Of a DNA stretch of 64,000 bases, positions 3,241 to 24,175 are shown piece by piece. The notes beneath the pieces were generated by a model. It did no database searches and was not told the origin of the DNA. It was given only the letters and a program-made list of their open reading frames with translations. Numbering within the stretch: the first letter of the stretch is position 1; every line of letters begins with the position of its first letter. A program made the position numbers and the translations under genes. Source of the stretch: Thermodesulfobacteriota bacterium (lineage in GTDB: Bacteria; Desulfobacterota; WTBG01; CAIYCZ01; CAIRTM01); assembly GCA_028278025.1 (NCBI GenBank), contig JANQFE010000073.1:1-64000 (forward strand), given 5' to 3'.

Positions 3241-4662
3241 TCACTTGCCTGACCAGTTCAGATAGTCCTTGACTGCCTGCCACGACCGCCCGAGTGCAGT
3301 AACATCCATGAGTTTGAAGATCCGGTACCAAACAGTCGGACGGAAATAGAACTCTTTAAAAGCCCGGGAGCGAAACTGGTTGACAGCCTGTGTGGAAACA
3401 GTCGGTAAATTCATTACGGCCTGATCCTGGCTCAGGCTGGTAAAATTATTAGAAGCAATCCATCCTTGTTTTACGGCCTGTTCATAGAGCCTGCTTCCCG
3501 GGAACGGCACTGCACAGTAAAACTGGGCTATATCAAGCTCCAGTTTTTTTGAAAGTTGGATTGTTGATTCCATTGACTGCTCAGTGTCACCGGGCAGTCC
3601 GAATATAAAATGACCGGCAGTTTTTATGCCGGCCTTGTGTGCACAGCGAACAGCATTATGGAAATGCTCCACCTTTATACCTTTTTCAGTCTTATCAAGC
3701 ACATGCTGATCAGCCGACTCTATCCCATAGCTTATCATCCAGCATCCTGCCCGGGCCATCAGTTGCAAAAGCTGTTCGTCGACAATATCCACCCTGCTAT
3801 TGCAGGTCCATGAAATCCTGATTCCTTTCTTAAGGATCGCCCGGCACAGTTCGGCAACATAGTCTTTATCCACCACAAAGGTCTCCGCCCAGAAAAAAAA
3901 ATCATGGATGTTGAAGCGATCAAGGTCATATTCAATCTCGGCAACAACGTTATCAACTCTTCTCTTGCGCAGTTTTTTGCCGTAATATGTCTGACATGTA
4001 CAAAAACTGCACATGAACGGACACCCCCGCTGGGGTACAACAATAACGAATTTTTTGGCCTTCATCGGCAGGGTATAGTTATCAAGGTTTATGAGGTGCC
4101 ACGCCGGAAACGGCAGGCTGTCAAGATCATCAATAAACGGGCGGGGAGGATTTACAACAACCTGATTATTATGATCCCGAAATGTTATGCCGGCAACCGT
4201 TCGGAGGTCCGTGCGCTGCTGCACAGCAGCAGCCAGCTCCTGGACAGTCATCTCAGGTTCATTGCGGATTATACAGTCAATCCGTGGAAAAGCGTCCAGG
4301 CTCTGTCTGTCAAGCACGGTAACATGGGTACCGAAAACAGCGGTAAAAACCGAAGGATCAATCTTTTTAATATCTGCGGCAAGGCCGAGGTCACTGTATA
4401 TGGAGGGTGTGCCGGTGCTCCAGACAACCAGACCGGGCAGGAACTGCTGTAGATGCTGCAGCAGATCATCCCATTCCGCTCCGTCCGCAGGGCAATCTAT
4501 AATCCGTACATCATGACCGGCTCTTTCAAGAACAGCACCGATCATCACAAGCGATATCGGCGGCCACAGTGTGGCCCAAACGCCCTGTTCCTGGGTACAG
4601 CGCCCTTCCCGAATAAATTTTTTCTTGTCTCCTGTGGGAGGATTAAGCAACAGAATTTTCAT
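3241..4662 (-). CDS. B12-binding domain radical SAM protein
   Basis: About 473 residues from the ATG at 4662; a TTG 33 bases further upstream is possible, but MKILLLNPPTG is the usual start of this family. The N-terminal half (about 1-150) is a cobalamin-binding fold. The radical SAM core holds the cluster motif GCPFMCSFC (CxxxCxxC) near residue 210, and the core continues to about residue 400. Relatives act in methylation or rearrangement of lipids and secondary metabolites, using SAM and often cobalamin. Neighbouring glycosyltransferases suggest a role in making or decorating a membrane lipid or glycan, but the substrate is not evident. Confidence 0.85.
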   Translation of the reverse strand: MKILLLNPPTGDKKKFIREGRCTQEQGVWATLWPPISLVMIGAVLERAGHDVRIIDCPADGAEWDDLLQHLQQFLPGLVVWSTGTPSIYSDLGLAADIKKIDPSVFTAVFGTHVTVLDRQSLDAFPRIDCIIRNEPEMTVQELAAAVQQRTDLRTVAGITFRDHNNQVVVNPPRPFIDDLDSLPFPAWHLINLDNYTLPMKAKKFVIVVPQRGCPFMCSFCTCQTYYGKKLRKRRVDNVVAEIEYDLDRFNIHDFFFWAETFVVDKDYVAELCRAILKKGIRISWTCNSRVDIVDEQLLQLMARAGCWMISYGIESADQHVLDKTEKGIKVEHFHNAVRCAHKAGIKTAGHFIFGLPGDTEQSMESTIQLSKKLELDIAQFYCAVPFPGSRLYEQAVKQGWIASNNFTSLSQDQAVMNLPTVSTQAVNQFRSRAFKEFYFRPTVWYRIFKLMDVTALGRSWQAVKDYLNWSGK

Positions 4663-11079: not shown

Positions 11080-12078
11080 ATGAATGATAGAATTCTGTTA
11101 GGCCATGGCAGCGGTGGCCGGCTGACACGTGAGCTCGTTGATGAACTTTTTGTCAAGGGGCTGCAGGAAGCTGCACCTCACAGCATGGATGACGCCGCCG
11201 TTCTGCCGCGGCAGGACCATAAGCTTGTTTTTACCACAGACTCCTATGTGGTAAGTCCTCTGGAGTTTCCCGGGGGTGATATCGGTACACTCGCCGTTGC
11301 CGGCACGGTAAATGACCTTGCAGTAATGGGGGCAACCCCCCTGTATATCTCCCTGGGAATAATTCTTGAAGAGGGTTTTGAAATATCGCGCTTAAAGAAC
11401 ATCGTCACTTCTATTGCTGATACTGCTAAAAAGTCAGGGGTTTGTATTGCCTGCGGTGACACCAAAGTGGTCGAAAAGGGCAAAGGTGACGGGTTGTTCA
11501 TTAATACGGCAGGCATCGGTGTATTGGCTTATCCGACCGACGAAACCCTGATTCAACCAGGGGACAAGGTAGTGATAAACGGCACCGTTGGGGATCATGG
11601 TATGACTATTCTAACCATGCGAAAGGGCTTTCCCCTTAAATCATCACTGCAAAGTGACTGTGCACCCCTCAATGGCCTTATTCACCAGGTTGCTCAACAG
11701 CAGCAGATTAAATGGATGCGGGACCCTACCCGAGGCGGTGTTGCAACCGCACTTAATGAGCTGGTTGAAAATAAACCTTGGGGTGTAATGCTTTCTGAAC
11801 CTGATCTGCCTTTTCATGAAGCTGTAGACGGGCTGGCAGAACTACTGGGCCTTGACCCCCTCTACAGTGCCAATGAAGGTAAAGTGCTCATGATAGTAAG
11901 TGCAGAGCACGCCTCTGAAACACTCAAGGCACTTCACGAACACCCTCTGGGCAAGCATGCCGCCATTATTGGAACGGTAACTGCAGATTACCCTGGTACG
12001 TTGATATTGCAGACTGAAATGGGAACAATGCGGACGCTGGGAATCCTGACTTCAGACCCCCTGCCGCGGATATGCTAG
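11080..12078 (+). CDS. hypE: HypE, hydrogenase carbamoyl dehydratase
   Basis: 332 residues of the AIR-synthase-like (PurM) fold. It starts with the glycine-rich LGHGSGGRL and contains DDAAVLP, FTTDSYVVSPL and GDTKVVEKG. It ends in the diagnostic PRIC, whose last cysteine is carbamoylated by HypF and dehydrated to thiocyanate. It closes the hypCDE group; hypA, hypB and hydrogenase structural genes are not in the window, so nickel insertion and the enzyme served must be encoded elsewhere. Confidence 0.97.
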   Translation: MNDRILLGHGSGGRLTRELVDELFVKGLQEAAPHSMDDAAVLPRQDHKLVFTTDSYVVSPLEFPGGDIGTLAVAGTVNDLAVMGATPLYISLGIILEEGFEISRLKNIVTSIADTAKKSGVCIACGDTKVVEKGKGDGLFINTAGIGVLAYPTDETLIQPGDKVVINGTVGDHGMTILTMRKGFPLKSSLQSDCAPLNGLIHQVAQQQQIKWMRDPTRGGVATALNELVENKPWGVMLSEPDLPFHEAVDGLAELLGLDPLYSANEGKVLMIVSAEHASETLKALHEHPLGKHAAIIGTVTADYPGTLILQTEMGTMRTLGILTSDPLPRIC

Positions 12079-12101
12079 AGCATTTTACACTGTTAGCATC
12101 A

Positions 12102-12494
12102 CTATTTTAAAATCTGTAACTCGAAATAGTTTGCTATCAGATCAAAATCTTTATCACTATGGAGCAAAGGAACTTTCTGTTCAATACAAACTGTTGCAAT
12201 CATACAATCAGCAGCATTTCTTATAGTTACTCCTTTTTTTCTCAACGTTCTGTATAAATGTGCCGCAAAAAGAAAGGTATCCTTTGTCATTGGAAAAAAA
12301 ATCAGGTTCTCCAGGATGTCTCTGGTGTGTCTATACTGTCGGTCGTTCCTGATCCCCTGTAGTATCTCACTAAGAACTATCCCGCATATACAGATGTCCT
12401 CATCATTTTCAATAAGCGATCTCAATTGAGCTGCTTGTCGAGTTTTTTTGCCCCCTAAAAAGCCGATCCAGACCGAAGTGTCTACCACTATCAC
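12102..12494 (-). CDS. vapC: PIN-domain ribonuclease toxin, VapC-like
   Basis: 130 residues. The PIN acidic residues are visible: VVDTSVW (Asp near 4), LSEILQG (Glu near 42), NAADCMIA (Asp near 98) and HSDKDFD (Asp near 117). VapC toxins cleave RNA and are held inactive by VapB. The gene overlaps the stop of the upstream antitoxin by four bases (ATGA-type), the usual arrangement. It converges on hypE with a 23-base gap. Confidence 0.9.
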   Translation of the reverse strand: MIVVDTSVWIGFLGGKKTRQAAQLRSLIENDEDICICGIVLSEILQGIRNDRQYRHTRDILENLIFFPMTKDTFLFAAHLYRTLRKKGVTIRNAADCMIATVCIEQKVPLLHSDKDFDLIANYFELQILK

Positions 12495-12694
12495 TTAATT
12501 TTCCGCCTCTGCCGCATATCTGAGAGATTGCCCTCCCAGGTTACTTTTCCCTGCAGCTCTAATATCTTTCTTTGTGATTTGCGGCGCAGCAATTCGCGCA
12601 GTGCATAATCAACAAGCGCTCTGCGGGTTTTCAGCCCTGTTGCTTTAAGGCCGTTTTCAACAAGCTTTTCGTCCAAAATAATATTTGTTCGCAT
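12491..12694 (-). CDS. vapB: VapB-type antitoxin
   Basis: 67 residues. MRTNIILDEKLV followed by LKTRRALVDYALREL is the ribbon-helix-helix pattern of the VapB_antitoxin (DUF2191) family. The basic, less ordered C-terminus (about 45-67, WEGNLSDMRQRRK) would wrap the toxin. Two inverted repeats immediately upstream are likely binding sites for the VapBC complex, consistent with autorepression. Confidence 0.88.
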   Translation of the reverse strand: MRTNIILDEKLVENGLKATGLKTRRALVDYALRELLRRKSQRKILELQGKVTWEGNLSDMRQRRKIK

Positions 12695-12713
12695 GACGGC
12701 ATGTACCCTTATA

Positions 12714-12756
12714 GTATAAAATATTTATACACATTATAGCATAAAAAATGTGTATA
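12714..12756. promoter_or_regulatory. Probable vapBC operator palindromes
   Basis: GTATAAA-ATA-TTTATAC (12714-12730) is a 7-bp inverted repeat. TATACACATT (12726-12735) and AATGTGTATA (12747-12756) form a perfect 10-bp inverted repeat with an 11-base spacer. Both lie 20-62 bases upstream of the vapB start in AT-rich DNA where the promoter should be. Confidence 0.6.
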
Positions 12757-12843
12757 TCAATAAAAAATACTTATATGTAAACGTTCCACATTTTCGGCAA
12801 TCGAATGTATTTATCCAGCATCCGGAAACAAGAAACCGGCCAC

Positions 12844-12968
12844 TATAGCATTTTTCAAAATAGTATGACCGGTAGGAACTGCCTCCGGCAGCGATTATCG
12901 CGACCAAAGGTCGCTCCCGCCCTGTGTCTAAAAACCTGTACGGCTACGATTTAATATGAAATGCTCTA
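12844..12968. repeat. REP-like palindromic unit with inverted ends
   Basis: The ends TATAGCATTT (12844-12853) and AAATGCTCTA (12959-12968) are inverted repeats with one mismatch. Inside are three small adjacent palindromes: CTGCC-tcc-GGCAG (12879-12891), GCGAT-t-ATCGC (12891-12901) and GCGACC-aaa-GGTCGC (12900-12914). The inner sequence resembles REP-type elements I recall from Gammaproteobacteria (GGAGCGACC..GGTCGCGAT); that match is from memory. Confidence 0.6.
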
Positions 12969-13021
12969 AATCTTTGTCCCATATTTGCTGACTTGTCCAA
13001 ACCGTTTAAGCTTTATCCTAA

Positions 13022-13060
13022 GAATAAAAAATCAGGCAGGGCCGTTGCTGGTCCTGCCTT
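13022..13060 (-). terminator. Intrinsic terminator of the beta-helix protein gene
   Basis: Read on the minus strand, GGCAGGACC and GGCCCTGCC (13050-13058 and 13035-13043) form a 9-bp stem with one G-U pair. It is followed by TGATTTTTT. It lies about 30 bases past the stop codon at 13090. Confidence 0.85.
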
Positions 13061-13089
13061 TTGTATTGTGTCCTTATCATACTGCTCTA

Positions 13090-15243
13090 TTACGGGCAGT
13101 CAGCTTCAAAATCATACGATTCAATTTGGCTTTGAGGTATTACGATACTGCTGTTGTCGGTCGGACTGAAGGTACAGTTGTCATATGTGGGTTGCACTTT
13201 GTATGTCCCGTTGTCGAGTCCGCCAAATGAATAATATCCAGCGGAATCTGTATAGCTTGTGCTTTCAGGATTATACGTTCCACAATTATTTTTAGACAGA
13301 TCAATTTGAACATTATTTTTGACATCTCCCGTGACATACCCATAAATAGTATCAGCATCACACACATCACCGGTACCGTCTGTATCTTTATCCGACTGAT
13401 CGAAATTTGCATCACTAGGACAATTGTCGCAGTCATCCCCCACGGTGTCATTATCCGTATCATCCTGATTGGCATTTGAATCAATGGGACAGTTGTCTTC
13501 ACAATCATCTACACTGTCATTATCAGCGTCGACACCCTCCGGATATTCATAGGCACCTATATCCGGATCTAAACATTGTGGAATAAGAGTTCCCTCGATG
13601 TCCTCGTCTAATTCAACATCTTCCCCTTTATTAATAGCCGGCGATGTCGGCGTGAGATGAAAATCATCTGTAGCATTGTCGACAAATAATGGATCTCCCT
13701 CAAGACCATTGGCTTCATATCCTTGATCTTGAAAAGTATCTAGATCTTTTTTGCCACCGTCCCAATAAATATAATTTCCCTGACCAACGTAAAAGTTATA
13801 ATCAATAACAGGACTTGCTACATCTGCAGTGTCATGTTCCCACAGAAGATAGCTGCTATTGGCGTCTATAAAAATATTGTTTTTTATTTCAACATTAGAC
13901 ATAGTGCCATCATAGAATAAAAGCGCTGCAGTGTTTCCAGCAAGAGTATTGTTGTAAATATTCAAGCCATTAACATCTCCTCTGACGATTATGGCATCAT
14001 AAGAATCACCCACAACATTATAATTAATATCAGCGGATATTTTTACATTATTAGATGCTGCGTAGATATATATACCATACGCACCATTCTGGTCACTATT
14101 TTGTTTAGAATTAGAACACCAATTTTTATTTATGATATATTTAGTACCATTATCCGTCGGAGTAACTTGTATACATTTAGAAGTTTGTGACGATTTTCCA
14201 ACATCATTTATTATATTATCTGCAATTGTACTATCTGCATTTGCTTGACAGGATATCCCACTGCCCTCAACATTAGTAACTGTATTCCCTGTAATTATTA
14301 TATTAGAAGTCCCTGGTTTTATATCTATAGCGTCAGCATCAGTGCCAGACCATCTATCAAAACCATTCATAAAATTATTATTAGTAATTGTTATTGTAGA
14401 AAGATTAGACGTTATGTAAATAGCTTCAGAACCGAAATTTTCAACAGTATTATTATCAAATGTCAAAGAGCCCGTATTCGAACTGAATACCGCATGGTGA
14501 TTATATTGATGTTGGGTATTTGTTATATGAATGTTATTACAAGCGCTGGGAAGCCTGGGAAGATATATACTGGTAGAAGTGTGTAAAAATTTTATATTTT
14601 GAATAGTAATAAATTTTTTATTACTTAACTTTATACCATCTTTATTTCCAGCAATCATCTCATCCTGGTTGAGTATCGTTCCTGATTCATTATCACGCAC
14701 ATAAATGGTAGGAAAATCTGTACCATTATCAATATTACACCATTGTCCAACCGTTAAATCAGCAGGATCGTCAATGTCCGTAGATCGCATCCCATCAAGA
14801 AGCGTAGAATTATCTCGCAAAATCCTCATCGTATTTCCAACACCTGGATCTCCACCGCCAGATTTTTTTAAATAATATAAAGTTGAATCATTGTCTGATG
14901 CAACCCACTCATGACCATGCGACTCACCCACTGGTATGCCACCGTCGATGGTTCCATTATCACCGGAACAGTCACCACTAATAACAATCGGGGAGTTTGC
15001 TGATCCATTATCTCCCACTTCTAATGTTTTTTTATGTTTACCACATACATACAGGGTATCACCGGCACTAACGCCGTTTATGCCCCAATCAATATTCTCA
15101 AAGCCACTCCAGGCATCATCATATGAACTCCCATCTCCCGCACCATACGTTGCGTTATCCGGCCTGACATAAAAGTCACCAGCATAAACATTGTTAATAA
15201 CAAACACCAAAGACATGATTAAAACGAAAAGTAATTTCTTCAT
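13090..15243 (-). CDS. Secreted right-handed beta-helix protein with thrombospondin type 3 repeats
   Basis: 717 residues. A signal peptide (about 1-21, ending VYA) is followed by a pectate-lyase/NosD-like parallel beta-helix (about 90-520) rich in short turns such as ITNNNF, IIITGNTV and GLNIYNNTLAG. Then come calcium-binding thrombospondin type 3 repeats (DNCP at about 575-625) and a C-terminal carboxypeptidase-regulatory-like module (YYSFGGLDNGTYK). The protein carries 15 Asp-Asn-x-Ser/Thr motifs. Its C-terminal 140 or so residues are homologous to those of the next gene, also at DNA level. It may bind or degrade a polysaccharide; no catalytic residues can be assigned. A leader cassette lies upstream (15555-15862). 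Confidence 0.8.
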   Translation of the reverse strand: MKKLLFVLIMSLVFVINNVYAGDFYVRPDNATYGAGDGSSYDDAWSGFENIDWGINGVSAGDTLYVCGKHKKTLEVGDNGSANSPIVISGDCSGDNGTIDGGIPVGESHGHEWVASDNDSTLYYLKKSGGGDPGVGNTMRILRDNSTLLDGMRSTDIDDPADLTVGQWCNIDNGTDFPTIYVRDNESGTILNQDEMIAGNKDGIKLSNKKFITIQNIKFLHTSTSIYLPRLPSACNNIHITNTQHQYNHHAVFSSNTGSLTFDNNTVENFGSEAIYITSNLSTITITNNNFMNGFDRWSGTDADAIDIKPGTSNIIITGNTVTNVEGSGISCQANADSTIADNIINDVGKSSQTSKCIQVTPTDNGTKYIINKNWCSNSKQNSDQNGAYGIYIYAASNNVKISADINYNVVGDSYDAIIVRGDVNGLNIYNNTLAGNTAALLFYDGTMSNVEIKNNIFIDANSSYLLWEHDTADVASPVIDYNFYVGQGNYIYWDGGKKDLDTFQDQGYEANGLEGDPLFVDNATDDFHLTPTSPAINKGEDVELDEDIEGTLIPQCLDPDIGAYEYPEGVDADNDSVDDCEDNCPIDSNANQDDTDNDTVGDDCDNCPSDANFDQSDKDTDGTGDVCDADTIYGYVTGDVKNNVQIDLSKNNCGTYNPESTSYTDSAGYYSFGGLDNGTYKVQPTYDNCTFSPTDNSSIVIPQSQIESYDFEADCP

Positions 15244-15557
15244 AACCGTTCCTCCTTTGTTGGTTTATAGTTTCATTTTTTTACTTCAAAATAATTATCC
15301 AGCATGCTTGTATACCAATTGTTTAATCCAAAGTCCGCAATCCAAAATTTATAAATCTGCCTACCGATTACTGATTACCAGCGCTGCCATTTGCGTTTCC
15401 CTCGAACAAATCGCTATACCGTCAAGCAATGCCGGCCAAGCAAAAAACGACACTCCTCCCCTGTTTATTGTGTGGCTTTTCGAAAGATTGAAGATAGTTG
15501 GTGGAGATGAGCCCCGATGCCCTTCCTTTTTACCTCCTTTTCCTTACAGACAACCTC

Positions 15558-15598
15558 AAAACAAAAAAGCCTCCAGACCTGATTTCAGATCTAAAGGC
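15558..15598 (-). terminator. Leader terminator (attenuator) in cassette A
   Basis: On the minus strand the arms at 15585-15598 (GCCTTTAGATCTGA) and 15569-15582 (TCAGGTCTGGAGGC) pair throughout with G-U wobbles. They are followed by TTTTTTGTTTT. It stands between the promoter and the start codon of the beta-helix gene, so it should limit read-through into that gene. Confidence 0.75.
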
Positions 15599-15668
15599 AT
15601 AAATTTACTCAGTTATATTAATTGATTTGACTTCTTTAAAGTGCTCCCTCACTTTTTCTACCCCTTCT

Positions 15669-15699
15669 TACAGGATCAAAAAACTGTTTAATGCCTGTA
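15669..15699 (-). ncRNA. Conserved leader hairpin A
   Basis: On the minus strand TACAGG-C-ATTAAA, loop CAGTTT, TTTGAT-CCTGTA forms a 12-bp stem with one bulge. It is identical in the copy at 20242-20272. It is followed by a purine-rich conserved run (AGAAGGGG, then AAAAGTGAGGGA) and the terminator. It does not match any riboswitch class I know; calling it a regulatory RNA is inference from position and conservation. Confidence 0.5.
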
Positions 15700-15718
15700 C
15701 CCTTTTTCTTTAGATTCA

Positions 15719-15746
15719 AATATATTTTGCAATTATTATTTGTCAA
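15719..15746 (-). promoter_or_regulatory. Sigma-70-type promoter in cassette A
   Basis: On the minus strand TTGACA (15746-15741) and TATATT (15724-15719) are separated by 16 bases. The region is AT-rich, and the -35 box is identical in the second copy. Confidence 0.6.
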
Positions 15747-15882
15747 GAACATTATTATTAATATTGAGTTAAAATTGTTCAATAATGATTATTGTTTTTA
15801 GATAAAAGAGGGTACGGTCCAGAGAGGAAAGGAGGGACCAAACCCCTCTGAACGTGGATACCCGCCCTCTTTCTATTGCCTC

Positions 15883-18800
15883 CTAGATTGTGGTTGTCGT
15901 GGTTGTGCAGCTTGACTCAAAGTCATACCCCGTCGGGGTACTCTGCGGAATGGTAATGTTGTCACTATCAGAAGGATCAAAACTGCACCCGTCTTCTGTC
16001 GGCTCCACTTTGTATGTTCCGTTGTCTAATCCACCAAAGGAATAATACCCAACAGAATCTGTATTGGTTGTGCTATCAAGACTAGGACCCCCACAAGCAT
16101 ATTTATAGAGATCAATTTGAACTTCATTTTCAACATCTCCCGTGACCGTACCATAGATGGTATCAGCATCACACATATCACCAATCCCGTCAGCATCACC
16201 ATCGGCCTGGCCCACATTAGCAGCATCAGGACAATTGTCGCAGTCATCCCCCACGGTGTCATTATCACTGTCGTTTTCATGGCAGTCAGAATCATCACAG
16301 TCTGTATCACCGTCTTCATCGTTATCAATACCGTCCGTGCAGCTGTATTCCTTGAAAAATACCTGCATTACTCCTTCCCCTGCGGGAAGGTCAATTTCAA
16401 TCTGATCGTTTACTTTTACATAGTCCAGCAGTATCGTCCTCTTCCACGGCATAGTGTACGTGGCATTGTCGGCATCTTTGGTTAAGGTAACTCTGTCGAC
16501 TTCATTGTCGACGTACAGCTCTATGGTCGCAGCTGTGGTTGCTTCAACATAGCCGACTATTTTTTCAGTCCGATAAGATAATGCTAGCTGGTGAATATCC
16601 GTTGCATTGTCTCCATTGCTGTCGCTGACCGGGAGTTCGTAAAGGGTAACCGCATCAACATCCAGCTGTACAGGCTCTTTCAGATAATAATCTGTAACAT
16701 CATGTGAACCGGCATCTCTGCGAAGCACCATCAGGTTACCCTGAAAACTTATATCTATATCCAGAGTTGCATTATCAATATCCAGCATGGTTTGGTTATC
16801 ATCAGCGTTGTGCACCACAACAATATCTTCATAGTCCTGCGAAACCGGTTCCAGCAGTGCCCCGGTACCGTTATCAATGTTATTCAATTTTGTTATCTCG
16901 ATAGATGCATTCTCCATATCCGAGCTGTTATCCGTAAAAATCAGATTCAGAAATTTTGCGTTCTGCGTATCATCCTGGACCTGCGAGACATATCCCAGTT
17001 TTAAATCACCTATAGAACAATAATCTCTCTCAGGAGTATATTCGCCGATATGCCACTCAGCAGGTACCAGCCCCTGAACATGAATATGTCCTTTTGCTTG
17101 TTCAGGTGTTTTATAGCCATAAGATGTTGTACAGTTAGGATTTCGTTTTAAAAATGCATTCCAAACCTCAACCCCGGCCCAGGATGCTGTCCTGTTTTCT
17201 GCATCAAATTCAGTTTCATTGTCCAGCCGGGGGGTAGGTAAAGATATTTCATAGTCATTGACTTCTGCGCCCTTTAATTCATCAAAAAGAAGGACATAGT
17301 CTTTTAAATACAGCACCTGCCGTGATACATCAACATCCCAAAAGCAGAGATGGCCCCAACAAGGGTTGTTTTTCCAGCCGATCTGGGCAGTTTGCAGAAA
17401 AGCATACTTTTCATTACCACCAGAGTAAGAAAAATAGTGTTCCAGTTCGCCATTGCCGTTACCATCGGCTATACAAAAGTCAAGGCCATCCCAATCATTA
17501 TTTACGGAAATAAATGATGTTTTATATTTATAAAGAGAGTCATTTTCAGAAGGGTTATAATAGGCCGGATCCGGGGTTATATAGTGCTCGCCGTTTTCAA
17601 AAAAAGCAATATGGGCCAGATCAACCCAGCCGGTCCATTCACTACCGAGACCTTCCGGTTTGCCGAACAGAAAAAACTGCCGGTCTTGTGTAGCATTATC
17701 CCAGGCATCCCTGAATACGGCCTGGTTGGCATGCGGAAAAAACTGTGTGGGCTGTTGCCAGATGGGGCGGGTGACATCCGAGGGGTCGTTGAGCCCCCAT
17801 TCTGCCGGTGAAAGGGACTGGGTATCAGGGCTAAAAATAAACAACCCGGGTACAATTCTAAAGTGGACAGGGTAACCGTAAATTCTCCCCGTTGCATCAC
17901 CCTCACCCTGTTTTTCAATTATCCACTGCATCATCCGTGCTAAGTGATCAGGAAACAATATGTCATTTTGAAACATTGAACTAAGGGGATGATATAGACT
18001 CCTGGTACCACCCCAATACGGCATGGTGCCATCACTGAAACGATCCTTTATCATGGCCTCAACCGCACGTTCGAACCGTGACCCTTTGATAAAGTTTTCT
18101 GGTGTAACGCGCTCATGGATAAAGGCAAGACACAGTACATCCCCCAACGCTGCATTGCGGTACGAATTACCGGTATTCTCGATACCGTCTTTGGTGATCC
18201 AATCATTTTCAAGCGCCCGGTTCACCAACTGGATAGCAGTATCCATCCATCCTGCTGGGTGGGTCATTATATGGCCTGCCGGCGGAACCCAGTCGGCCAG
18301 CGCATGCGCAAAGATTCCGGTTGAGTGGAACATATATCCGACAAAGTTCACTGTGCCTGTTCCATTACCGCTCTTGTACTTCCAGAGATTCGTCTTGTGG
18401 GAATTCACCGTTAAGTGGTCGATCAGCTTGGCAAGCTTGAGTCGTATCCGTTCCTCATAGTCCGTCCCGTGTGCAGTATCATCCTGAAGCAGCCGCTCTT
18501 TAAGCATATCATAGGCAAGGGCATAGGAGGCAAGACTATGGGCCGCGTAAGCAGAAGCACCGCCGTACATGGGATCATAGAGCAAAAGGTCCCGGGCAAG
18601 TTCATAATACTTCTCGTTTTCGGTTTCATTGTCTTCATAGATATAGGTATGTTCCTCCATACGGTATGCCAGGGCCGCCATTGCAATCATTGCCGGCGTT
18701 ACCCAGTTACGCATTCTGTATATGCGAATTTCTGTTTCCGCTTGAAATGATAACGGTGAATCAGGGATGCTCCTGAATTCGTCCTTATGATATCCATAGG

Positions 18801-19896
18801 CATAGTGAACTATCCATGTTTTTGTTGCATTGTCATACTGTGCTCCATTCACTGGAATAGCAAGAAACCTGCCTTTCTCTGCACCGCTTATTATTTCTAT
18901 ATAATCTCCCCCATAACCAGAACCTAGAATGCTTGCATTGTCCGGGATGCTGATATACAAGGTGTTGTTGTCGGGTTGCGTATCTTCAACAATGCTGCCG
19001 TTAAAAAGAAAATCATCTAAGGTCTTTACCGGTTCGTCGTTACTGACTGTATACGGAGGATGATCAAAAAATCCCAGGTTGGTCTTCCCACCTACATACG
19101 CCCGTAGATAATACATAAAACAATGATAGAGCCCCCGCGTGTAATAATCATTACTTGTCCTATAGCCCTTCACCCGCGCAAGATCAGCCGGGTCAAACAG
19201 GATTGTACTGTTGTCGCGTTCAGCCGGATCAACATAGGCTGAAGAAGCCAGCACCACCTCCCACTGTGACCCCAGAGCATTATAGGTAATGCATTTCTCC
19301 TCGGAGTTCTTTTCCGTGCCGTTATCGGCTTTAAAAACAATATCAAAGCACGTCGTGCTGTTATCGGTTAGTTCGGGCAGCCTAATATAGGGGTGGGGAT
19401 CTCCCGCAGTGATGGTAACAGACTCATTATCATCAACGTCGACATCATATGCATCCGTATTCAAATAAAGCCGAACCGGATTAACCCCCGTCTCCCATTC
19501 CTCTCGCCGGTCCATACAGGCCGGGCCGGCAGTAATCTTTTGCCATGTAGTCTCGTGTTTGCCATACGTATCGGTAACCCGCAATGAAACAGTGAACTCA
19601 TCGGCAACAGCATAGGTGTGAGTTGGTGACGTGCTGTTGTCGGTAGAACCATCACCAAAGTTCCAGAGGGATGCAACAACATTCAAACGTGAATTATTGG
19701 TAAATGCTACCACAAAGGTGCTGTTATCTATCTCATAGGAAAACTCTGCCGTGAGCGTAGGCGTTCGGTCTGTATTATTTGGGATGCCGTCACCATCGGT
19801 ATCACTTGCCGGATAACTAAAAACTGTGGTATTTACAAGACCTAAAAACAAAAGCACATAAATAAAAACAACCGCTGTTGATACTGTCTTTTTCAT
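15883..19896 (-). CDS. Large secreted PKD / heparinase II/III-like protein with thrombospondin type 3 repeats
   Basis: 1337 residues. Signal peptide (about 1-30), a short calcium-binding DTDGDGIPNN stretch, and a PKD domain (about 48-125, WNFGDGS..THTY). A long helical region (about 240-680) with an alpha/alpha-toroid look is followed by a beta-rich part (about 720-1000) containing GWVDLAHIAFFENGEHYI, which resembles the heparinase II/III C-terminal domain. The C-terminus has type 3 repeats, then the YYSFGGLDNGTYK module, ending in Thr-Thr-Thr-Thr-Thr-Thr-Ile. There are 21 Asp-Asn-x-Ser/Thr motifs. It is likely an exported polysaccharide lyase or binding protein; the family call is tentative. 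A leader cassette lies upstream. Confidence 0.65.
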   Translation of the reverse strand: MKKTVSTAVVFIYVLLFLGLVNTTVFSYPASDTDGDGIPNNTDRTPTLTAEFSYEIDNSTFVVAFTNNSRLNVVASLWNFGDGSTDNSTSPTHTYAVADEFTVSLRVTDTYGKHETTWQKITAGPACMDRREEWETGVNPVRLYLNTDAYDVDVDDNESVTITAGDPHPYIRLPELTDNSTTCFDIVFKADNGTEKNSEEKCITYNALGSQWEVVLASSAYVDPAERDNSTILFDPADLARVKGYRTSNDYYTRGLYHCFMYYLRAYVGGKTNLGFFDHPPYTVSNDEPVKTLDDFLFNGSIVEDTQPDNNTLYISIPDNASILGSGYGGDYIEIISGAEKGRFLAIPVNGAQYDNATKTWIVHYAYGYHKDEFRSIPDSPLSFQAETEIRIYRMRNWVTPAMIAMAALAYRMEEHTYIYEDNETENEKYYELARDLLLYDPMYGGASAYAAHSLASYALAYDMLKERLLQDDTAHGTDYEERIRLKLAKLIDHLTVNSHKTNLWKYKSGNGTGTVNFVGYMFHSTGIFAHALADWVPPAGHIMTHPAGWMDTAIQLVNRALENDWITKDGIENTGNSYRNAALGDVLCLAFIHERVTPENFIKGSRFERAVEAMIKDRFSDGTMPYWGGTRSLYHPLSSMFQNDILFPDHLARMMQWIIEKQGEGDATGRIYGYPVHFRIVPGLFIFSPDTQSLSPAEWGLNDPSDVTRPIWQQPTQFFPHANQAVFRDAWDNATQDRQFFLFGKPEGLGSEWTGWVDLAHIAFFENGEHYITPDPAYYNPSENDSLYKYKTSFISVNNDWDGLDFCIADGNGNGELEHYFSYSGGNEKYAFLQTAQIGWKNNPCWGHLCFWDVDVSRQVLYLKDYVLLFDELKGAEVNDYEISLPTPRLDNETEFDAENRTASWAGVEVWNAFLKRNPNCTTSYGYKTPEQAKGHIHVQGLVPAEWHIGEYTPERDYCSIGDLKLGYVSQVQDDTQNAKFLNLIFTDNSSDMENASIEITKLNNIDNGTGALLEPVSQDYEDIVVVHNADDNQTMLDIDNATLDIDISFQGNLMVLRRDAGSHDVTDYYLKEPVQLDVDAVTLYELPVSDSNGDNATDIHQLALSYRTEKIVGYVEATTAATIELYVDNEVDRVTLTKDADNATYTMPWKRTILLDYVKVNDQIEIDLPAGEGVMQVFFKEYSCTDGIDNDEDGDTDCDDSDCHENDSDNDTVGDDCDNCPDAANVGQADGDADGIGDMCDADTIYGTVTGDVENEVQIDLYKYACGGPSLDSTTNTDSVGYYSFGGLDNGTYKVEPTEDGCSFDPSDSDNITIPQSTPTGYDFESSCTTTTTTI

Positions 19897-20133
19897 TTTC
19901 TTTCCTCCTCTTTGTGTATACGTTTTGGTCTCTTTTTACGTCATAATATTTCTGCGGTTTTCAAGTGCGCTGATATTTCTCCAATAAATGGCCATATAGT
20001 TAGACAACTCCTGCCGGACAAAAAATGACAGTATTTCCCCGTCGGCTGGGCATTGGTGTTAACCTGAAGGGTGGTGGAGAGGGGTTATGGTGCCCCCTCT
20101 ACTACACCCCCTCTTTTGCCCCTCTATCAAAGC

Positions 20134-20186
20134 CAAAAAAAAACAAAAATGCCTTCAGATCTGGTTGTTGACCTGAAGGCATTTTT
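20134..20186 (-). terminator. Leader terminator (attenuator) in cassette B
   Basis: AAAAATGCCTTCAGATC (20145-20161) and GACCTGAAGGCATTTTT (20170-20186) form a 17-bp stem with one wobble and an 8-base loop. On the minus strand the stem is followed by a long T-rich run. It lies between the cassette promoter and the 1337-residue secreted protein. Confidence 0.88.
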
Positions 20187-20241
20187 CTACTCAATTATTT
20201 TGACTTTTTTAAAATGATCCCTCACTTTTGCTGCCCCTTCT

Positions 20242-20272
20242 TACAGGATCAAAAAACTGTTTAATGCCTGTA
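20242..20272 (-). ncRNA. Conserved leader hairpin B
   Basis: Identical in sequence to the hairpin at 15669-15699, in the same position relative to promoter and terminator. Conservation of the unpaired loop as well as the stem suggests a recognised structure rather than a simple stem. Confidence 0.5.
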
Positions 20273-20290
20273 CCCTTTTTCTTTACGAAT

Positions 20291-20319
20291 CTAATATATT
20301 TTCAATTATTATTTGTCAA
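20291..20319 (-). promoter_or_regulatory. Sigma-70-type promoter in cassette B
   Basis: On the minus strand TTGACA (20319-20314) is followed after 17 bases by TATTAG (20296-20291), or after 15 by TATATT. It would drive the leader and the 1337-residue protein. Confidence 0.6.
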
Positions 20320-20483
20320 GAACATTATTATTAATATTGAGTTAAAATTATTCCATAATGATTATTGTTTTTAGATAAAAGAGGGCACGGCCCAAAGAGG
20401 AAAGGAGGGACCAAATCCCTCTGAAGGTGGATACCGATTTCTAATAGTTTCCGCGGTTACTATAGAGAATACCGGTGAAACAT

Positions 20484-22352
20484 TTACTGTACCGTAATCC
20501 CGATACTTTCCAGCAAGGTTCCGTTCCGTATTTTCTGAATGACCAGATCGGCATAAAATACAAGTTTGGGTGAGCCTTCTTGCTTAAGGTCCTTGATAAA
20601 CGCAGTTATATCATCAACATTCTCTTCGGGTATAATTGCTGTACCGCTCTGAGCTGCATCAGCAGCAAAACCACTATTTTCAGCTACCAGGTTTTTCAAA
20701 CGGTTTCGCAGCTCCGGGTGATCCGACAATATACGGGTAACTTCATCCGCATTGGCATAAAAGACCTGCATAATAAATCTGCCGGAGAAATGATCCCGCC
20801 AGCTGTCTCTGAGCTGATAGAGCGTGGCAAGATGAGCCGCATTATCAAGGGTGGCTGCAAAAGGACATCTGCGTGAAACGGTTATGTAATCCTGCTTTGA
20901 GGCTGTTTCCATACGACCGTCTGTGGCGGTCACGGTTAATGAAACAGTATATGATCCCGGGTTGTCATAGGTGTGGAAGGTGTTTGGTTCAGAACCGGTT
21001 GTACCGTCACCGAAATCCCACACATACGTATCTAGGGGGCCTGAGGAGAGATCCTTAAATTCTACCATGAGCGGGGCAGATCCTGAGGTAGGACTGCCTT
21101 CAAAATCTACACTTAACGGCTCAGGAACTGATGTAGTTGTGGTTGCCATATCCGGCTGGGTTGTTGTTGTCGTGGTTTCTGCAGAAACGGTTGTCGTTGT
21201 GGTGGTGGTTTCAGCCGCGGTTGTTGTGGTTGTCAGTGCGGGGCCGCCTTCAGCAATAAAATCGATATCGGATACTGTTTCACCGGCAGCGACGTTAACC
21301 TCCTCGAAAGCATTAAGATCCGGTTCACTGTTACTCTCATCAACGCCATTGTAAAACTCTGTGGTTACCGGATCATCAAAGGAATCATCATTGCTGTCTG
21401 CCGTATACGGGCCGACGCCGGACCCCCCGGTGAATGCTGCATTAATCGGTTCGATAAAAAGCTTGTAGGTCCCCGGAGTAACCAGCATCTCAAATGCGCC
21501 GTCATTTTGCTGGTAGTAATCGGAAACACTGGAAAATCGGCTGAAATCTTCATCGCCGATCTGTACGGCCACTACGTTGGCACCCCGCACGGCCTTGCCG
21601 GTACCTCGCTTTACCGTCCCGGTTATTGTACCGTAGGCGGAATCAGCAGTGCTCCCCGGATAGAGAAGTGTCAAAGCGGCTTCATCATCCGGGTTCAATT
21701 CTGCCAGCAGGGTATCGTCATCGGTTGATGTAGGGAACATGGTGGGCAGGTTTGCATCATTCGATGTATTGCCGTCGCCGGCAAATTCAAGGTTTATCTG
21801 GGTATGGTCAAGCCCTAAAAAATGTCCGAATTCATGCACAAAGGTGGCCCTGAACTGCTCAAAGCTGAACATGGCGGTGAACTTTCCGTTAAGCACTGCA
21901 AGACCTTCTACATAACGGCCGGTCGCGGTGGAAAAGGCCGAACCGGCAAAACCGATTACAAAATCACTTGCTCCGGTACCGAATTCCTGTTCAATAATAG
22001 CGCCGTCTGTATCAAAAATAATAGGATTGAGCCCATCAGTATAATTGCTGTCATAAACTCCGTAATTACCGGGGATTATATCTACGGGCAGCTGTCCGCC
22101 ATTTGTAAACGTGATGGTAGCTGTAGAAACGTCCTGCCATTCCTGAAAGCTGCTGTCAACCAGAGATGTGCCTTCAGAGTTGCTGAGGGAGCCCAGGCTG
22201 CCCTGGTCTACGTGGTATGGTATGGGGAAGTCACTATCCGGGTATACAACTGCTTCACCGTCAACTGTATTAAGGGGCCCGCCGGCATAGCTGCGGGCAC
22301 CGTAAAGCATCATAAACACTATTAAGACTACAAGCATCAGGACTCTTTTCAC
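20484..22352 (-). CDS. Secreted matrixin-type metalloprotease with PKD domain
   Basis: 622 residues. Signal peptide (1-23, ending SYA). The catalytic domain holds the zinc motif HEFGHFLGLDH (about 173-183), an exact metzincin HExxHxxGxxH, and a Met-turn candidate in LPTMFP (about 202-207), which points to the matrixin (M10) type. Next come a carboxypeptidase-regulatory-like beta domain (about 240-310), a Thr-rich linker (about 375-410), a PKD domain (WDFGDGTTG) and an unassigned C-terminal domain (about 500-622). Unlike the two secreted proteins after it, it has no Asp-Asn-x-Ser/Thr motif. It is 39 bases downstream of a small exported protein gene, with which it probably forms an operon. Confidence 0.85.
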   Translation of the reverse strand: MKRVLMLVVLIVFMMLYGARSYAGGPLNTVDGEAVVYPDSDFPIPYHVDQGSLGSLSNSEGTSLVDSSFQEWQDVSTATITFTNGGQLPVDIIPGNYGVYDSNYTDGLNPIIFDTDGAIIEQEFGTGASDFVIGFAGSAFSTATGRYVEGLAVLNGKFTAMFSFEQFRATFVHEFGHFLGLDHTQINLEFAGDGNTSNDANLPTMFPTSTDDDTLLAELNPDDEAALTLLYPGSTADSAYGTITGTVKRGTGKAVRGANVVAVQIGDEDFSRFSSVSDYYQQNDGAFEMLVTPGTYKLFIEPINAAFTGGSGVGPYTADSNDDSFDDPVTTEFYNGVDESNSEPDLNAFEEVNVAAGETVSDIDFIAEGGPALTTTTTAAETTTTTTTVSAETTTTTTQPDMATTTTSVPEPLSVDFEGSPTSGSAPLMVEFKDLSSGPLDTYVWDFGDGTTGSEPNTFHTYDNPGSYTVSLTVTATDGRMETASKQDYITVSRRCPFAATLDNAAHLATLYQLRDSWRDHFSGRFIMQVFYANADEVTRILSDHPELRNRLKNLVAENSGFAADAAQSGTAIIPEENVDDITAFIKDLKQEGSPKLVFYADLVIQKIRNGTLLESIGITVQ

Positions 22353-22391
22353 GGATAACTCCTTCCTATCAAAGTGCAGTAAAACGTTATG

Positions 22392-22988
22392 TTATTGCAT
22401 CAGGACATTCACCAGGGTTATGAATCTGTCATAGGTAATCGCACCTGAGGTCTGCTGCAGACTCTTTAGGATACTCTCTCTGCGGGGATTATCCGAAAGT
22501 TTATCGGCAATGGTTTCGGTGTTTATACCTTTAAAAAGATTATGGTTGTTGTTTGCATTGACAACTTTTTTTGTTCCCTGCCGATCATATATCACTGAAA
22601 ACTTACCCTGCCCTAAACCAACCGGGCTTGAAAACCCCAGAGAACTCTTCGTATGCAGAAACAAAACGACTTCATCTCCTACAGAATACGTCGGCACCTG
22701 CCCCATCTCCACAAGCGTCTTACTTGTTGTAACAGTATACACCTCCTGCTTTTCACCCTTAAGCATAAGGTTTACCTTAAAAGTCACAACGTATACATCC
22801 CGCTGGATAGCTTCATCAAACGTCATCTGCCTGTCAATGCAGACACCTGAAAAAATATCCCCGGCAGAAGCGATGATTTCAGCCAGGTTGGCCTGTCTGA
22901 CAGTAATGGCAGGGGCAACAGGCACACACAACACTGCGACAATCAACCAAGCAACCGCAAAAAAACCTCTGGATTTAAGTCTTGTCAT
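22392..22988 (-). CDS. Exported protein of unknown function upstream of the metalloprotease
   Basis: 198 residues with a signal peptide (about 1-29). The mature part is mostly predicted beta strand (VYVVTFKVNLMLKGEK, YSVGDEVVLFLHTKS), then a helical tail. I do not recognise a named family. Because it is cotranscribed with an M10-type protease, it could be an inhibitor, chaperone or substrate; that is only a guess from position. Confidence 0.7.
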   Translation of the reverse strand: MTRLKSRGFFAVAWLIVAVLCVPVAPAITVRQANLAEIIASAGDIFSGVCIDRQMTFDEAIQRDVYVVTFKVNLMLKGEKQEVYTVTTSKTLVEMGQVPTYSVGDEVVLFLHTKSSLGFSSPVGLGQGKFSVIYDRQGTKKVVNANNNHNLFKGINTETIADKLSDNPRRESILKSLQQTSGAITYDRFITLVNVLMQ

Positions 22989-23133
22989 AAGTCCTCCAAC
23001 TTTGTAATGTAACTACAGTTCCTGCTACTCTGCACCGGGCAGATTGATCATGGATACGTATAAATCACTGCATTGTCAATATCTTTTAGCATTTTTATTG
23101 ATCCCGGAAAGCATTTGCCCTATGGTATGAAAT

Positions 23134-23931
23134 ATGAAACTTAACTCCGTTATAACATTTACAACAGATTTTGCCAGTGCTGATCCCTATGTCGGCATCA
23201 TGCAAGGGGTGATTCTTTCAATTAATCCACAATGCACCTTCATTGACATCACCCACGAGATTACCCCTCAGGATATTATACACGGCTGCTTTGCCCTCTC
23301 AGTCTCCTATAACTACTTCCCCAAAGGAACAATCCATGTTGCCGTGGTAGACCCGGGTGTGGGCAGCAATAGGCGTGCGATTATAGTTGAAACTGACATG
23401 TATATCTTTGTGGGCCCGGATAATGGTATCTTCAGCTTTGTACTCGACAGCCCGGATGTTGCAAAAGTCACTGAAATCACCAATGCAGCCTATTTCCGGC
23501 CCTCTCCCAGCACCACCTTTCACGGCCGGGACATCTTTGCTCCCGTTGCTGCCCATCTGTCTAAGGGGATACCGCCCCAGCGCTTCGGCAGCCCCGTTAC
23601 CGATTATGTTCTCATCCGGACCCCCGAACCGGTGCTTCAGAGCACTGGTGCAATAGAAGGCGAAATACTTCACATAGACCGGTTCGGCAACCTCATTACA
23701 AACATCACCCGCCGGTTTCTGGAAAAGCACTTAGGTGACACTATAATCGCTGGCATAAATGGAATAAAGGCCACACGCCTGCTGCAAACCTACACACAGG
23801 CGGAAGATGATGAACTTTTCTGCCTGTTCGGCAGCAGCGGACACCTGGAGGTGTCGGTGAAAAACAAAAGCGCCCAGGAGATAACCCGGGCACGCAGGGG
23901 GGATAAAATAATAGTAATTTGTGACTCATAA
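23134..23931 (+). CDS. SAM hydroxide adenosyltransferase (DUF62 / SAM_HAT family)
   Basis: 265 residues, normal length. The N-terminal TTDFASADPYVG, VVDPGVGSNRR and TFHGRDIFAPVAA carry the Asp, Arg and His residues of the family's Asp-Arg-His site. The C-terminal domain (about 165-265) is the beta barrel containing HIDRFGNLITNI. The enzyme hydrolyses S-adenosylmethionine to adenosine and methionine, related to fluorinase. It is divergently placed to the exported protein gene and appears monocistronic. A heptamer repeat tract overlaps its stop codon. Confidence 0.93.
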   Translation: MKLNSVITFTTDFASADPYVGIMQGVILSINPQCTFIDITHEITPQDIIHGCFALSVSYNYFPKGTIHVAVVDPGVGSNRRAIIVETDMYIFVGPDNGIFSFVLDSPDVAKVTEITNAAYFRPSPSTTFHGRDIFAPVAAHLSKGIPPQRFGSPVTDYVLIRTPEPVLQSTGAIEGEILHIDRFGNLITNITRRFLEKHLGDTIIAGINGIKATRLLQTYTQAEDDELFCLFGSSGHLEVSVKNKSAQEITRARRGDKIIVICDS

Positions 23932-23952
23932 TTCGTGATTAGTTAGACTGAT
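23918..23952 (+). repeat. Degenerate 7-bp repeat over the SAM_HAT gene stop codon
   Basis: Units TTTGTGA, CTCATAA, TTCGTGA, TTAGTTA, GACTGAT; the stop TAA (23929-23931) ends the second unit. Shorter and weaker than the tract after hypF. Confidence 0.5.
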
Positions 23953-24175
23953 TGCTGGTCATAGCGGAGCGGAGATCTCGCCAAAAGTCAGGCGATTTCA
24001 ATATGATATATTAAAGTATTAATTTAATATTACATGATATTTTAAATAAAATACTCCTTTACTCTGCTACTGTCAATAAAAAATCATCCAAAGATGAAAA
24101 TATTTGCATTCTTCTTTGAAATAATTAAGCAGTGTGTGGACAGTTGAAAAACCCCCAGTGGCCCCGGGTTCCCCT

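Follow-up and report, generated by a model that had tools for sequence, protein, structure and literature searches.

A duplicated promoter, short-RNA and terminator cassette, probably a regulatory unit, upstream of two exported-protein genes in a Thermodesulfobacteriota genome

In the 64,000-nucleotide stretch of DNA analyzed here (the window), two genes for large exported proteins are preceded by almost the same intergenic segment, in which an initial annotation had recognized a promoter, a hairpin and an intrinsic terminator. This raises the question of whether the duplicated segment is a regulatory unit of the genes behind it and, if so, whether it acts as a leader that feeds transcription into them or produces an RNA of its own.

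Organization of the duplicated cassette

The two segments (15646-15862 and 20219-20435) have the same length of 217 nt and are 89.9% identical in an ungapped alignment; the identity of about 94% given in the initial annotation is reached when two one-base gaps that compensate each other are introduced near 15713-15729. Exact blocks of 52 nt (15661-15712), 47 nt (15730-15776, previously counted as 46), 31 nt and 20 nt are shared; the first of these covers the RNA start including hairpin 1, the second the promoter region. Homology between the copies begins at 15862 (20435 in the second copy) and continues as far as the terminator at 15558 (20134), with 87% identity overall. Since about 240 nt of shared identity excludes chance, the two segments are, judging from their alignment, a true duplication. 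A search of the genome (4.8 Mb in 170 contigs, 93.5% complete) revealed exactly two copies, 4.6 kb apart. Cassettes and downstream genes are all located on the minus strand, with the order upstream hairpin, AT-rich palindrome stretch, promoter, short RNA, terminator, long UTR, SD and ATG in 5′ to 3′ direction. The following features were annotated:

15620-15862, minus strand: copy 1 of the cassette, with upstream hairpin, AT-rich operator/UP region, promoter and the short RNA's 5′ portion; identity with copy 2, about 94%
20193-20435, minus strand: cassette copy 2, about 94% identical to copy 1
15803-15862, minus strand: upstream hairpin of copy 1, AGAGGG..GGTCC..GGACC..CCCTCTTTT, 92% identical between the copies
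20376-20435, minus strand: upstream hairpin of copy 2, 92% identical between the copies
15719-15746, minus strand: predicted promoter of copy 1, TTGACA-16-TATATT, 11 of 12 consensus positions
20293-20319, minus strand: predicted promoter of copy 2, TTGACA-15-TATATT, spacer one base shorter, 11 of 12 consensus positions
15669-15699, minus strand: hairpin 1 of copy 1, UACAGG-C-AUUAAA/UUUGAU-CCUGUA, 12 pairs, about -10 kcal/mol
20242-20272, minus strand: hairpin 1 of copy 2, same sequence as in copy 1, 31 nt, 12 pairs
15638-15655, minus strand: hairpin 2 of copy 1, AAAGUG-AGGGAG-CACUUU, 6 pairs
20211-20228, minus strand: hairpin 2 of copy 2, AAAGUG-AGGGAU-CAUUUU, 6 pairs
15569-15598, minus strand: intrinsic terminator of copy 1, 13-pair stem followed by TTTTTTGTTTT
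20145-20186, minus strand: intrinsic terminator of copy 2, 17-pair stem followed by GTTTTTTTTT

The upstream hairpin lies 21-49 nt past the stop codon of the gene before it (about 20 nt past that of 15883-19896 for copy 1) and is a probable terminator of this gene that was duplicated along with the cassette. The 31-base hairpin 1 is indeed identical in both copies, as had been noted before. It is joined to hairpin 2 by the G-rich linker AAGAAGGGG, and in hairpin 2 a single G-C to G-U exchange separates the copies. From its predicted start to the terminator, the RNA would have a length of about 150-155 nt.

Downstream and neighboring genes

13090-15243, minus strand: gene 1, exported protein of 717 aa with right-handed beta-helix, thrombospondin type 3 and a CarboxypepD_reg-like C-terminal module
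15883-19896, minus strand: gene 2, exported protein of 1337 aa with PKD domain, central region and a C-terminal module as in gene 1

The products of the two genes have only the C-terminal thrombospondin-type-3/CarboxypepD_reg-like module in common (61% identical). The central region of the gene 2 product matches no Pfam domain, and a search of 146 related genomes yielded no homolog of it. The C-terminal module was also seen on several further exported proteins, encoded in this genome and in that of one family member, and the cassette is absent from the genes of all of these. The module of about 150 aa (13180-13479 and 15991-16290), possibly a tail for sorting or anchoring, is found on many otherwise unrelated exported proteins (contigs C2, C96 and C129; family member G005). 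The gene upstream of copy 2 (20484-22352) codes for a protein that resembles M43-type metallopeptidases and has a PKD domain, and three such large proteins, all probably exported, are encoded in succession in the cluster 13090-22352.

When 464 kb of the genome were sampled, 3 of 27 signal-peptide genes had a terminator in their 5′ region, compared with 17 of 122. As terminators are not enriched before signal-peptide genes, the cassette is regarded as a local device and not as a rule for exported proteins; promoter-plus-terminator leaders are not general among the secreted genes of this genome. A general role ahead of exported proteins finds no support, given this ratio and the genes with the same module that lack the cassette. 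One other gene for an exported protein, a 950-aa ORF (G000:C129, L030), is preceded by a TTGACA-like element and by an intrinsic terminator whose end lies 96 nt ahead of the ATG; their sequence is unrelated to that of the cassette.

Local conservation of promoter and RNA start

The segments between terminator and gene were aligned as well:

15244-15557, minus strand: 5′ UTR from terminator to gene, copy 1, with weak 8/12 promoter-like sites at most
19897-20133, minus strand: 5′ UTR from terminator to gene, copy 2, without promoter-like sites of at least 8/12

These UTRs are homologous (local score of 113.5 versus 66 ± 9 for shuffled sequences) yet only about 72% identical. In one contiguous alignment, the identity amounts to 96% in the AT-rich palindrome stretch, 97% in the promoter and 93% in the 5′ part of the RNA, of which the first 52 nt are 100% identical, and then decreases to 79% in the terminator and about 72% in the following UTR. 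In support of the initial view, a duplicated promoter, hairpin and terminator precede two secreted-protein genes and are far more conserved than their surroundings; this sharply local conservation is, as far as two aligned copies can tell, the strongest new result. For the shared 3′ coding module of the genes, dN is 0.29 and dS about 1.3. If the duplication included all of these parts at once, the promoter and the start of the RNA would have stayed near-constant while silent sites neared saturation, and promoter and RNA would have evolved many times slower than synonymous sites. With n = 2 copies, local gene conversion is an alternative source of the high identity.

Along this line, a recent recombination or gene conversion event could have transferred an ordinary constitutive promoter region between the two neighboring genes, so that the identity would reflect homogenization and hairpin and short RNA would have no role. 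Conversion tracts likewise yield sharp identity edges, and the cassette exists only twice, in a single genome and at a distance of 4.6 kb. Moreover, the genes combine a common 3′ module with unrelated central parts, which indicates that the locus recombines. The differences between the copies are, however, unevenly distributed: the first 52 nt of the RNA and the block of -35 box and upstream sequence are invariant, and the terminator varies solely by pair-preserving wobble in its 11 kept pairs. We consider this explanation quite unlikely.

Terminators and read-through

Both terminators rank among the strongest within 12000-24000. Including their tails, they occupy 15558-15598 and 20134-20186, about 240-315 nt ahead of the start codon, and stem and U-tract are kept in both despite sequence drift. 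Of the 11 terminator pairs common to both copies, four differ by a G-U exchange on one side, and double-sided changes are absent; hairpin 1 is invariant, and the changes in hairpin 2 are one-sided, too. The terminators had been described as mutated in a compensatory or wobble fashion, of which the wobble part holds and the compensatory part does not. Because all changes in terminator and hairpin 2 are one-sided, the conserved RNA structure that had been deduced from compensatory terminator mutations is not upheld. Each of the 29 pairs tested forms in either copy, but two sequences are too few to prove a structure.

A sigma-70-like promoter was searched for between terminator and gene, and no obvious second promoter was detected, copy 2 having none and copy 1 only the weak 8/12 sites. 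At the level of sequence order, an intrinsic terminator stands between the predicted promoter and the first gene, and there is no clear second promoter. This order of promoter, RNA, strong terminator and gene favors a leader with two outputs, in which a promoter under PerR/Fur-type regulation would give rise to a short RNA, ending at the terminator, as the main product, and read-through would feed the secreted-protein gene. We tentatively prefer this explanation and give it a nearly even chance. Against it stand the gap of 240-315 nt after the terminator, which is long for an attenuator, the promoter spacer of just 15 nt in copy 2, and the result for antiterminator pairings, none of which was better than chance when compared with shuffled sequence. 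The complementarity AGGCAU(U)/(A)AUGCCU between leader and 5′ arm of the terminator was equaled in 10-21% of the shuffles (Watson-Crick pairs only), and the mutually exclusive antiterminator structure of terminator-type attenuators was not found in the cassette RNA. In the preferred explanation, the terminator would govern read-through instead of ending an independent sRNA.

The independent sRNA is a close rival. Here, the region from promoter to terminator would be a unit of its own, present as tandem siblings, for an RNA of about 150 nt that acts in trans, and the secreted-protein genes would be neighbors with their own undetected promoters. An orphan promoter and an orphan terminator in a strongly conserved segment whose conservation declines at the terminator, as observed here, are the classic layout of sRNA genes. 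The lack of an antiterminator above chance points in the same direction, as does the presence of a candidate Fur/PerR-family site (described below). Two highly similar RNAs with a promoter and a terminator each, as in sibling sRNAs, are found at the sequence level only. This explanation is weakened by the gap before the gene in copy 2, which has no promoter-like site, and by the position of both copies, which is kept relative to a related 5′ UTR and a related gene 3′ end, so that cassette and gene were duplicated together. In addition, iron and peroxide sRNAs are usually common to close relatives, and a homolog is absent from the family members. Sibling sRNAs are thus considered possible but somewhat unlikely.

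A translation-coupled attenuation was considered as well, in which a ribosome at the stop codon of a GTG leader ORF of 12-15 codons would block the folding of the terminator:

15605-15652, minus strand: weak candidate short leader ORF of copy 1, GTG..TAA (VREHFKEVKSINITE), after AAGGGG
20187-20225, minus strand: weak candidate short leader ORF of copy 2, GTG..TAG (VRDHFKKVKIIE)

These ORFs end 0-6 nt before the terminator stem and differ by a 9-nt in-frame indel. The SD-like AAGGGG, its spacing, the frame across the 9-nt deletion and the stop codon are kept in both copies; as there are just five substitutions between the copies, though, the conservation of the frame is not significant. In view of the GTG start, the imperfect SD and the absence of a stalling-type codon run, such a mechanism is very improbable.

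Candidate PerR/Fur-type operator

The AT-rich stretch upstream of the promoter contains a palindrome in both copies:

15780-15794, unstranded: palindrome of copy 1, CAATAATCATTATTG, core AATAATCATTATT, candidate PerR/Fur-family operator
20353-20367, unstranded: palindrome of copy 2, CAATAATCATTATGG, 11 of 12 core positions

The core AATAATCATTATT (13 bases) is identical to a candidate operator in the perR-rubrerythrin intergenic region of the same genome. The 12-mer AATAATCATTAT occurs nine times genome-wide, compared with a single occurrence of the reversed control, and a 12/12 core was reached in 0.02% of resampled segments of equal composition. Exact or near-exact non-coding sites are those of the two cassettes, the perR-rubrerythrin region and the promoter of an RpoD-like sigma factor. 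Based on these matches, a PerR/Fur-type control of the cassette promoter is plausible. Several observations stand against this part of the preferred explanation. At two mismatches, the motif is hardly enriched genome-wide (153 versus 136 in the control), and five of the nine exact 12-mers are located within or at the edge of coding sequence. The comparison sites sit over the promoter, whereas the cassette palindrome is centered about 41 bp ahead of the -35 box, from where repression is not obvious. Weaker 9/12 half-matches are found closer to and inside the cassette promoter.

In the perR-rubrerythrin region (G000:C55, L113:1488-3284 and 3494-4009), a perR-like gene (L113:1488-1880) and the genes for rubrerythrin, desulfoferrodoxin and ferritin are divergently oriented, and a perfect palindrome of 25 bp, AGTAATAATAATCATTATTATTACT, is located at the promoter of rubrerythrin. 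PerR is the best NCBIfam match of the PerR-like gene, with a score below the equivalog cut-off. The RpoD-like factor (G000:C124, L117:635-2017) has 460 aa and an acidic N-terminus, and the operator core lies between its -35 and -10 boxes, which suggests a stress-controlled alternative sigma factor.

Search for homologs

In line with the initial view, the cassette RNA falls into no known Rfam family: there was no match at gathering or relaxed thresholds, and the best sub-threshold candidates, PyrG_leader and IS128 RNA, were far below the cut-offs. Further copies in relatives, which had been anticipated, were found neither with covariance models nor with BLAST. No credible homolog was detected with covariance models in 9 family genomes or 395 phylum genomes, a set without a genome of the same genus, and BLAST against 98 relatives returned the cassette's own two copies and, for the remainder, short AT-rich matches. 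The exact hairpin pattern was absent from viral and genome contigs, and plasmid and phage records contained no useful match to the cassette.

Two covariance models were used, R1 for the whole RNA and R2, run on the 395 genomes, for the RNA without terminator. The best outside matches of R1 (20-24 bits) were driven by terminator or composition. A candidate at G004:C148:19643 with promoter, GGGGTAG and terminator was rejected due to 13.5 bits of bias and the absence of an adjoining homologous gene. The matches of R2, with E-values down to 3e-5 that are unreliable for the A-rich cassette RNA, either lay in coding sequence or in the gap between two neighboring genes on one strand, or spanned a gene junction, and are therefore regarded as composition artifacts. 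A CsrA-controlled leader (ANGGAN hexaloop; AGGGAG loop of hairpin 2) was discarded, as the 93.5%-complete genome contains no PF02599 match.

Proposed function and comparison with known systems

The cassette is probably a real regulatory unit, on record from one genome only; it is an orphan in sequence and of a known general kind of regulatory element. According to the preferred explanation, in which we infer the transcription start, the identity of the regulator and any regulation of read-through, it would be a 5′ regulatory unit that was duplicated in tandem. Transcription would start about 155 nt before the terminator, from a sigma-70-type promoter behind an AT-rich region with a PerR/Fur-type operator. 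Most transcripts would stop there and form a short RNA with the constant hairpin 1, the G-rich linker and a second hairpin, while a read-through fraction would continue over a 5′ UTR of 240-315 nt into the exported-protein gene. Output could be set at two levels, by a peroxide- or iron-sensing control of the promoter and by termination versus read-through. The stronger claim, that an undescribed lineage-restricted RNA is produced from twin PerR/Fur-type-controlled promoters as a discrete short regulatory RNA together with regulated read-through into exported proteins, is doubtful and judged unlikely.

If true, oxidative or iron status would be linked to the repertoire of exported proteins, an orphan family of stress-controlled short RNAs would be added to a poorly sampled lineage, and a clean natural pair would be available for asking whether a terminator-ended RNA before a gene acts as leader, as sRNA or in both ways. 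Otherwise, the locus would still be a clear case of a near-constant promoter region driving genes with unrelated central domains.

Terminator-type 5′ leaders such as attenuators and riboswitches likewise consist of promoter, structured 5′ RNA, intrinsic terminator and downstream gene; the cassette differs from them by the lack of a known aptamer or an above-chance antiterminator and by the long gap after the terminator. Similar AT-rich palindromes were predicted as PerR sites in Desulfotalea by Rodionov et al. (PMC545781), and the AT-rich 7-1-7 palindrome of PerR/Fur-family operators, e.g., the candidate Desulfotalea psychrophila site GTTAATGATAATCATTAct (PMC545781), is also present here, in a different position relative to the promoter. 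PrrF1 and PrrF2 of Pseudomonas aeruginosa are iron-regulated tandem sibling sRNAs with about 95% identity that were found by a search for Fur site and terminator (PMC4211561). The cassette has no sequence similarity to them and no Rfam match, its candidate site is located at some distance ahead of the -35 box, and each copy precedes a same-strand secreted-protein gene without another clear promoter. Common to both systems are the tandem, highly similar copies, a site of the metal-regulator type at the promoter, a candidate one in the cassette, and a short RNA, predicted for the cassette, that ends at an intrinsic terminator.
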